NCBI GenBank assembly: GCA_024742285.1
Contig: JANSYR010000015.1
Coordinates: 1 to 64,000 of the forward strand
Direction: 5' to 3'
From: a bacterium
Lineage (GTDB): Bacteria > Myxococcota_A > UBA9160 > UBA4427
DNA length: 64,000 nt
The translations under genes were made by a program, and so were the position numbers. Below the pieces are notes generated by a model. It worked only from the letters and a program-made list of their open reading frames with translations. It was not told the origin of the DNA and made no database searches. Positions 1,313 to 27,812 of this stretch are shown one piece after another; position 1 is the first letter of the stretch; the number at the start of each line of letters is the position of its first letter.

Positions 1313-2098
1313 TCAGGCGCGCTGGCTGGAAACCGAGACGACTTCGCCGGTCATGTAGGAGGCGTAGTCGCTCGCCAGGAAGACCATCACGTTCGACACC
1401 TCCCAGGGCGCCGCCCCGCGGCCGAAGGCTTCCTTCGCCTCGAGCTCGTCGAGCAGCTCCTGCGGCGTCGTCTTGACCAGGAAGGGATGGATCGCGATCG
1501 AGGGCGCGACGGCATTGATCCGGATCCCGTACTCGGCGGCCTCGATCGCGGAGCAGCGGGTCACGGCCATCACGCCGGCCTTCGCCGCCGCGTAGTGGGC
1601 CTGTCCCTTCTGCGCACGCCAGCCCAGGACCGACGCGTTGTTCACGATCGCTCCGCTCCTTCGCTCCATCATGTGGGGGAGCACGGCGCGCGTCATGCGG
1701 AAGACGCTGTTGAGCGTGATGTCGAGGACGGAGTCCCACTGGTCGTCGGTCATGTCGACGATGTCGACCTCGCCGCCGAGACCGGCGTTGTTGATCACGA
1801 CGTCGATGTGGCCCATGTCCTCGATCGCAGCCGCCACGAGCGCGCGGACGTCCGCGTCGTCCCGAACGTTGCAGAGCCGGTGGCCGCAGGGCTTGCCGGA
1901 GATCTCCGCCAGCTTCTCGGCCGCGTCGGCGGTCCGCTTCTCGTGGATGTCGCTGATGAAGAGGCGCGCGCCCTCCTCCGCGCAGCGCTGGGCCGTGGCG
2001 AATCCGATCCCTGCGCCCGCGGCGGCGGTCATCAGGACCGTCTTGCCGGCGAGCAGGTCGTGGGGCGGGACGTAGTCGGGGGGCGGCAGCTTGGCCAT
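1313..2098 (-). CDS. ipdF: SDR-family oxidoreductase, IpdF-like
   Basis: Short-chain dehydrogenase/reductase of 261 residues. An unusual nucleotide-binding motif, TAAAGAGIG, lies near residue 24. The catalytic Ser (NNASVLGW) and YAAAK motifs are present, as are INAVAPSIA and an ASDYASYMTGEV C-terminus. These sequences closely recall mycobacterial IpdF (Rv3559c), which reduces a hydroxy-indene-type CoA ester in steroid C/D-ring breakdown; the recall is from memory, not a search. The gene lies 40 bp downstream of a FadE30-like dehydrogenase, the order also found in Mycobacterium. The start chosen is MAKLPPPDY; a longer upstream frame exists but is arginine-rich and not family-like. Confidence 0.78.
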   Translation of the reverse strand: MAKLPPPDYVPPHDLLAGKTVLMTAAAGAGIGFATAQRCAEEGARLFISDIHEKRTADAAEKLAEISGKPCGHRLCNVRDDADVRALVAAAIEDMGHIDVVINNAGLGGEVDIVDMTDDQWDSVLDITLNSVFRMTRAVLPHMMERRSGAIVNNASVLGWRAQKGQAHYAAAKAGVMAVTRCSAIEAAEYGIRINAVAPSIAIHPFLVKTTPQELLDELEAKEAFGRGAAPWEVSNVMVFLASDYASYMTGEVVSVSSQRA

Positions 2099-24836: not shown

Positions 24837-25193
24837 CTAGCGCCCGGCGCTCGCGAGCGCGGTCGTGCCTTCCTCCGTCCAGACCGGCGCGCCCGGTCGC
24901 TCGCGGACGAGCAGGTAGAGCAGCGTCCCGACCGAGCCGGTCCCGAGGGTCAGGATCAGAAAGGGCCAGGGCGAAACGCCCCGAGCCTTCGCGTCGGCGT
25001 AGACCCAGCCCATCACCATCGACAGGGCGATGAACAGGTCGACCGTCACGAGCGTGCTGACGGGGTTGGCGAAGGCGACGTCGACCCAGCCCATGCCGTA
25101 CTCGAGCAGGACGTAGCCCGTGAAGGCGGTGAATCCGACGAAGTCGACGAGCAGGGCCCAGAAGAGCCAGGGTCGTGTGTCTTCCAGCTTCAT
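24837..25193 (-). CDS. Small membrane protein, three transmembrane segments
   Basis: A 118-residue protein of unknown function. Three hydrophobic stretches are visible: WLFWALLVDFVGFTAFTGYV, LVTVDLFIALSMVMGWVYAD and PFLILTLGTGSVGTLLYLLV. The layout (short N-terminus, conserved Asp in the second helix, charged C-terminal tail RERPGAP) recalls DUF2834-type proteins, but I cannot confirm the family. The start is supported by GGAG eight bases upstream. It is divergent from the two-component system across 265 bp. Confidence 0.7.
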   Translation of the reverse strand: MKLEDTRPWLFWALLVDFVGFTAFTGYVLLEYGMGWVDVAFANPVSTLVTVDLFIALSMVMGWVYADAKARGVSPWPFLILTLGTGSVGTLLYLLVRERPGAPVWTEEGTTALASAGR

Positions 25194-25304
25194 GTGCGTC
25201 TCCAGTTGGCCTCTTGCGAGGCGGATTCGGGTGCGTGCCCTCTCGCCGGTGCAACGCGAGTGCCAACGCGCGCACGCGCTCCAACGGCCGGCTCGTGGCG
25301 GACG

Positions 25305-25322
25305 TGTTGCAGCCGCGCAACA
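25305..25322. promoter_or_regulatory. Inverted repeat, candidate enhancer (UAS) for NtrC-type regulator
   Basis: TGTTGC-N6-GCAACA, a perfect 6-bp inverted repeat, is centred about 100 bp upstream of the predicted sigma-54 start. This is the usual distance for an NtrC-family enhancer. The two-component response regulator downstream is the obvious candidate binder. Confidence 0.5.
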
Positions 25323-25388
25323 TCGACGTCGCGCGCCTGCCTCATCCCGACCCGACGACACGCCGACGCGCGCCTGAAGGCCACGCCG

Positions 25389-25406
25389 TGGGGCACGCGG
25401 CTTGCT
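25389..25406 (+). promoter_or_regulatory. Sigma-54 (-24/-12) promoter
   Basis: GGGCACG-CGGC-TTGCT matches the consensus TGGCACG-N4-TTGCA/T at nearly every position, with the invariant GG (25392-25393) and GC (25404-25405) exactly 10 bases apart. It lies about 55 bp before the histidine kinase start and points into that operon. The product of the second gene is itself a sigma-54 activator with GAFTGA. Confidence 0.72.
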
Positions 25407-25458
25407 TAACGAGAAAGGAGCGACCCGGTACCCTTTCCGCCAAGCCTGGAGGACCGCG

Positions 25459-26462
25459 ATGCAAGCGAGCCCGTCCGTCCCGATTTCCGAACGCTTCCGA
25501 TTGCCCGCGCTGCCGCGGTGGGCGTGGATGACGCTCGGTGCCTCGATCGGTCTCTTCGACTTCGGCGTCCTGGTCCTCCTCGACGCCGACATGCGGATCG
25601 GCCAGACGGACGCGACCTGGATCGTCGCCCTCGCCTTCCTGATCCCCTACGCGATCCTCGGCTGGGCGGTCGGCGGACTCGCCGCAGCCCGCGAGCAGGC
25701 GGACCGAGACGCGGAGACGATCCGGTCCCAGCTTCGCGCCCTCGAGCGGACGCAGCGCGCCCTCGTTCAGGAAGAGAAGCTCGCCGGCATCGGTCGCCTC
25801 GCCGCGGGGGTCGCCCACGAAGTCCGCAACCCGCTCGGGGTGATCCGCGCCTCGGCCTCGATGGCCCGGGAGAGCTTCGACGAAGGCACCGACCCCCACC
25901 GCGCCCTCGGCTTCGTCTGCGAGGAGACCGACCGGCTCGACCGCCTGATCGCGTCGCTCTTGACCTTCGCCAAGCCCCAGCCGGTCGAGCGGGTCGAGGT
26001 CGACGTGACGAAGGTCCTCGACCGCGCGACGGAGCTCGCTCGGAGCGAGGCCCGCGCGGGCGACGTCGCCCTCGAGATCGAGGTCGAGCCGGGGCTCCCG
26101 ACGCTCCGCGTGGACCCGGACCGGCTGGCCCGGTCCCTCTACGGGCTGACGCTCAACGCGATCCAGGCGCTCGCGGAGAGCGATGCGACGACCCGCCGCA
26201 TCCGGATCGTCGCCCGCGGACGGACGAAGGGCGTCGAGCTCCGGGTCGAGGACTCCGGGCCGGGCGTCCTGCCCGAGCTTCACGACTCGATCTTCGAACC
26301 CTTCGTGACCTCGAAGGAGACCGGCACCGGGCTGGGGCTGCCGATGGCACTCCGCATGATCGAGGCTCAGGGGGGGCACCTCACCCTGCTCGACGCACCG
26401 TCCGGACTCGGCGGCGCCTCGTTCTCGATCGAGCTGCCGTCGGCCTCTGCGGAGGCCATCCC

Positions 26463-26466
<4 letters not shown>
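25459..26466 (+). CDS. Membrane sensor histidine kinase
   Basis: A 335-residue NtrB/AtoS-type kinase. Two membrane helices lie at about residues 23-41 and 53-76 with a very short periplasmic loop, then a coiled segment. The HisKA domain has the H-box AAGVAHEVRNPLGVIRA (His120), and the HATPase_c domain has DSGPGV and GTGLGLPMA. The short loop suggests sensing within the membrane or cytoplasm. GGAGGACCGCG precedes the ATG. Its stop overlaps the regulator's GTG start (GTGA). Transcription is predicted from the sigma-54 promoter at 25389-25406. Confidence 0.93.

Positions 26467-27812
<1,346 letters not shown>

Follow-up and report, generated by a model that had tools for sequence, protein, structure and literature searches.

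The closest described arrangement to the one considered here is that of ZraP and ZraSR in Escherichia coli, in which the regulator has a single high-affinity target, the stretch separating zraP from zraSR, and the system autoregulates (PMC8249747). A layout of the same type, with a kinase and NtrC-type regulator pair divergent from a small target gene and a predicted regulator site between them, is found at positions 24837-27812 of the window (the whole 64,000-nucleotide stretch of bacterial DNA that was analysed) and in the orthologous loci. The predicted target here, however, is a membrane protein of the DUF2834 family, whereas ZraP of E. coli is periplasmic and binds zinc, and the kinase of the window has no periplasmic part for sensing. 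The scores of the two proteins are also well below the cut-offs of the corresponding models (178 bits for the kinase vs a cut-off of 479 for ZraS; 392 for the regulator vs 760 for ZraR). Because of these three differences, we do not place the system in the ZraPSR family. By score, the closest named models for kinase and regulator are AtoS and AtoC, but again the values are far below the cut-offs (183 vs 646 and 462 vs 714, respectively), and no ato-type target genes adjoin the palindrome that we predict to be the regulator site. A very similar palindrome followed by a -24/-12 element is seen in what appears to be PrpR-type control of prpB in Xanthomonas, where four of the six loci also have a gene for a sigma-54 activator next to it; the target there, however, reads as methylisocitrate lyase. 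PrpR is an activator and not a response regulator.

We propose, with a probability of about 0.8, that the locus encodes a self-contained sigma-54 circuit consisting of a kinase, a regulator, a shared enhancer, and divergent promoters for the DUF2834 gene (output) and for the kinase-regulator operon (feedback) (Table 1). The membrane kinase would respond to a change within or at the inner membrane by phosphorylating the NtrC-type regulator, which would then bind the palindrome and activate RpoN-polymerase at both promoters. Transcription from the minus-strand promoter would supply the DUF2834 membrane protein, and transcription from the plus-strand promoter would supply more kinase and regulator, amounting to positive autoregulation.

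Table 1. Features of the predicted circuit, in window coordinates.
Feature	Position	Strand	Remarks
DUF2834 gene	24837..25193	-	118 codons; small membrane protein; predicted main target
Second -24/-12 element TGGCACTCGCGTTGCA	25265-25250	-	1 mismatch to consensus; for DUF2834 gene
Palindrome TGTTGCAGCCGCGCAACA (TGTTGC-AGCCGC-GCAACA)	25305..25322	.	exact repeat; predicted enhancer common to both promoters
-24/-12 element GGGCACGCGGCTTGCT	25391-25406	+	1 mismatch to consensus; for kinase-regulator operon
Ribosome binding site GGAGG	25448..25452	+	before kinase ATG; read from sequence
Membrane histidine kinase	25459..26466	+	335 aa; HisKA and HATPase_c (Pfam)
NtrC-type response regulator	26463..27812	+	449 aa; GTG start; 4-bp overlap with kinase

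The domains and motifs of the two proteins confirm the kinase/NtrC-type pair that the sequence-only reading had recognised. The regulator contains receiver, Sigma54_activat, AAA lid, and HTH_8 domains by Pfam, with Asp53 as phospho-acceptor, a Walker A motif (GESGTGKE) at 171, GAFTGA at 218, and a DRTTLYR recognition helix at 434. It thus has the NtrC-family set of a receiver aspartate, an AAA+ domain carrying both the Walker A and GAFTGA motifs, and a Fis-type helix-turn-helix; defence-system models gave only generic matches to it. The recognition helix is kept, as [I/V][D/E]RTTLYR, in every orthologue for which the C terminus is in hand. In the kinase, a short loop connects two hydrophobic stretches at the N terminus, and Pfam recognises no sensor domain besides HisKA and HATPase_c; the earlier description was of a kinase with almost no periplasmic loop. 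All 19 orthologues compared keep Asp34 in the first stretch and Gly68 in the second, but they differ in the length of the loop. Sensing by the kinase probably takes place within or at the membrane. A more specific and rather doubtful idea is that the system mounts an undescribed response to membrane state, in which the kinase would sense within the bilayer (Asp34 and Gly68) and the DUF2834 protein would be both the output and a feedback partner of the kinase.

The genome encodes RpoN (RpoN DNA-binding domain, E 6.6e-65) and 21 strong sigma-54 activator domains. Exact GGCACG-N4-TTGC sites occur 16 times in forward and 14 times in reverse orientation, whereas the reversed control gives 7 and 5, and several of the exact sites precede genes that by eye appear to be flagellar, type IV pilin, and ammonium transporter genes. 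Such genes are classic sigma-54 targets, so the consensus is meaningful in this genome. Using TGGCACG-N4-TTGCW as the consensus, we find one element on each side of the palindrome, both with the GG and GC dinucleotides at the fixed spacing of sigma-54 promoters. In the kinase-side element, GG lies at 25392-25393 and GC at 25404-25405; the near-consensus element reported earlier at 25389-25406 is therefore real, but its left edge had been set 2 bp too early. From its position, transcription of the kinase operon is predicted to begin at about 25417, in agreement with the earlier prediction. The second element, which the sequence-only reading had overlooked, is oriented toward the DUF2834 gene, with a predicted transcript start at about 25239 and the start codon 58 bp past the -12 element. 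If GG and GC are held fixed, the window contains no other site with at most one mismatch. When the 265-bp intergenic region was dinucleotide-shuffled 20,000 times, a plus-strand element of this quality turned up in 29 cases and elements on both strands in none.

The palindrome sits between the two divergent elements; measured from its center, the -24 position is 79.5 bp away in the kinase promoter and 50.5 bp away in the DUF2834 promoter. An inverted repeat TGTTGC-N6-GCAACA had been noted about 100 bp upstream of the kinase operon; the repeat is exact, and its center lies about 103 bp before the predicted start. None of 20,000 dinucleotide shuffles of the intergenic region contained it. It had also been suggested that a genome search for paired enhancers and -24/-12 sites would lead to further targets. 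The search gave none: the 6.5-Mb genome has no second copy of the exact palindrome, and no palindrome with one mismatch has a -24/-12 element (two mismatches or fewer) within 350 bp. Because the exact palindrome is single, the regulon of this NtrC-type regulator is probably local. Across loci, the distances from the enhancer center to the DUF2834 -24 cluster at 48.5-52.5, 60.5-63.5, and 73.5-76.5 bp; because the loci are related, we make no claim of helical phasing.

The DUF2834 protein matches Pfam PF11196 (E 1.7e-8; 35.1 bits, above the gathering cut-off of 22.9); all 21 linked homologues match the family as well, at E up to 0.1. An AlphaFold2 model (mean pLDDT 78.5) has three predicted membrane helices. 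Weak matches to ABA4-like were obtained for 11 of the 21 linked homologues (best E 3.7e-5), and neither sequence nor fold comparison gave a meaningful solved relative. Homology to the membrane part of the kinase was considered and rejected, as no similarity was found. The family is scarcely mentioned in the literature searched. In Nannocystis exedens, two tandem DUF2834 genes encoding identical protein sequences lie behind the enhancer (L140:1725-2402, minus strand).

Orthologues of the kinase (37-55% identity) are encoded by six further genomes within the class. In the 379-genome phylum sample, 16 genomes besides that of the window have one, of which G373 is doubtful, its match covering the catalytic part only. 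Within the genus, eight further genomes were compared and none gave an orthologue at the threshold used, so the module at 24837-27812 is patchy. The design is mostly kept in the orthologous loci of the phylum sample and in Nannocystis, and thus recurs among distantly related organisms, cultured strains included. The DUF2834 gene is divergent with the palindrome between in loci L035, L067, L068, L069, L071, L074, L077, and L078; in L075 and L076 the order along one strand is palindrome, DUF2834, kinase. Nearly all orthologous loci have an element equivalent to the second -24/-12 element of the window. On the kinase side, an element with at most two mismatches occurs in the upstream 320 bp of 13 of 20 kinase loci, compared with 1 of 24 paralogous kinase loci within 1 kb, and the palindrome is in none of these 24 controls. 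The kinase-side element is weaker, with three mismatches, in G075, G078, and G165 (loci L067, L069, and L077), and the full palindrome is missing near the kinase in G049, G315, G093, and G290. The missing palindromes and the three-mismatch promoters together indicate weaker conservation of autoregulation than of the control exerted on DUF2834.

This uneven conservation raises the possibility that the DUF2834 gene is the sole sigma-54 target and that the kinase operon is transcribed mainly from another promoter, with no meaningful autoregulation. The better conservation of the DUF2834-side element and palindrome, and the three-mismatch elements of the three genomes above, fit this alternative. 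Nevertheless, we consider it unlikely, as the kinase-side element of the window has a single mismatch and correct spacing, and as such elements are frequent in front of the kinase and rare in front of its paralogues. The earlier prediction of positive autoregulation is thus supported as a part of the self-contained circuit, probably as its feedback arm only, but not as the whole story: across genomes, the output tied most consistently to the enhancer is the DUF2834 gene and not the operon of the activator.

That tie is seen most clearly where the genes are separated. In G049, G315, and G084, the DUF2834 gene is on a different contig from the kinase, and in G290 it is downstream of the kinase-regulator pair; in each case, the palindrome precedes DUF2834. 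The accompanying -24/-12 element is perfect in G049, has one mismatch in G315 and G290, and is weak in G084. We searched the 379 genomes with a DUF2834 profile and inspected 30 fetched loci; the profile was made from enhancer-linked members, and its ranking favors these. GTTGC-N6-GCAAC precedes DUF2834 in 15 of 16 kinase-bearing genomes and in 1 of 14 genomes without the kinase, and palindrome and promoter together precede it in 13 of 16 vs 0 of 14, counts that are not independent trials as the genomes share descent. The exception is G093, a kinase-bearing genome in which the palindrome does not precede DUF2834. We predict from these patterns that the DUF2834 family has a dedicated and conserved sigma-54 two-component regulator. 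A family of unknown function would thereby be given a context, along with a predicted regulator and control site. The predicted circuit, compact and probably membrane-sensing, is testable in cultured Nannocystis strains such as N. exedens or N. pusilla.

When about 85,000 genomes (species) were scanned blind for the palindrome and a -24/-12 element 33-63 bp apart, 52 stretches were returned, nine of which lie before a DUF2834 gene: five in Nannocystis strains, one in a Polyangia MAG, and three in deltaproteobacterial MAGs that were already in the orthologue comparison. Among the remaining stretches are clostridial genes with other sigma-54 activators nearby. In six Xanthomonas species (L127, L142, L144, L161, L164, and L173), a near-identical palindrome and a -24/-12 element precede an apparent prpB at a constant gap of 42 bp, and it seems that a different activator uses the same half-site there. 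We therefore rejected the notion that the palindrome is a unique signature of this regulator; as it also precedes unrelated sigma-54 genes, the palindrome alone cannot identify the regulator. It nevertheless gives an enhancer sequence for this NtrC-type lineage that is usable for target finding in other genomes. In kinase-bearing G049, the palindrome and a perfect -24/-12 element precede an apparent glutathione S-transferase gene (L114, about 1430-1520, minus strand; same place in L163, isolate OFTM280). This gene is the only other likely target seen and is possibly a second target.

The finding of near-identical palindromes at sigma-54 promoters beside unrelated activators, together with the number of strong activator domains in the genome, also allows for a reading in which another of the roughly 20 encoded activators binds the palindrome and the adjacent regulator acts elsewhere. 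We regard this as very unlikely, as the palindrome adjoins the kinase-regulator pair in most loci and its presence before DUF2834 tracks the kinase lineage in the 30 inspected loci. Chance occurrence of the motifs in a GC-rich intergenic region can practically be discounted: two-mismatch -24/-12 matches are common in the window (4.3 expected, 3 seen), but the shuffle controls, the paralogue controls, and recurrence in many genera argue against it. The self-contained circuit remains the reading that we prefer.

Two further arrangements were observed. In two Archangium MAGs, the palindrome and a -24/-12 element precede a predicted lipoprotein with repeats (L138:7385-7466; L167:918-1000, minus strand). 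The genome of the window itself has, at C26:36463-36646 (L032 and L033), two more -24/-12 elements that face away from each other at a distance of about 170 bp; on one side they precede a small membrane protein, and a different sigma-54 activator gene is nearby (C26:37340-37843).
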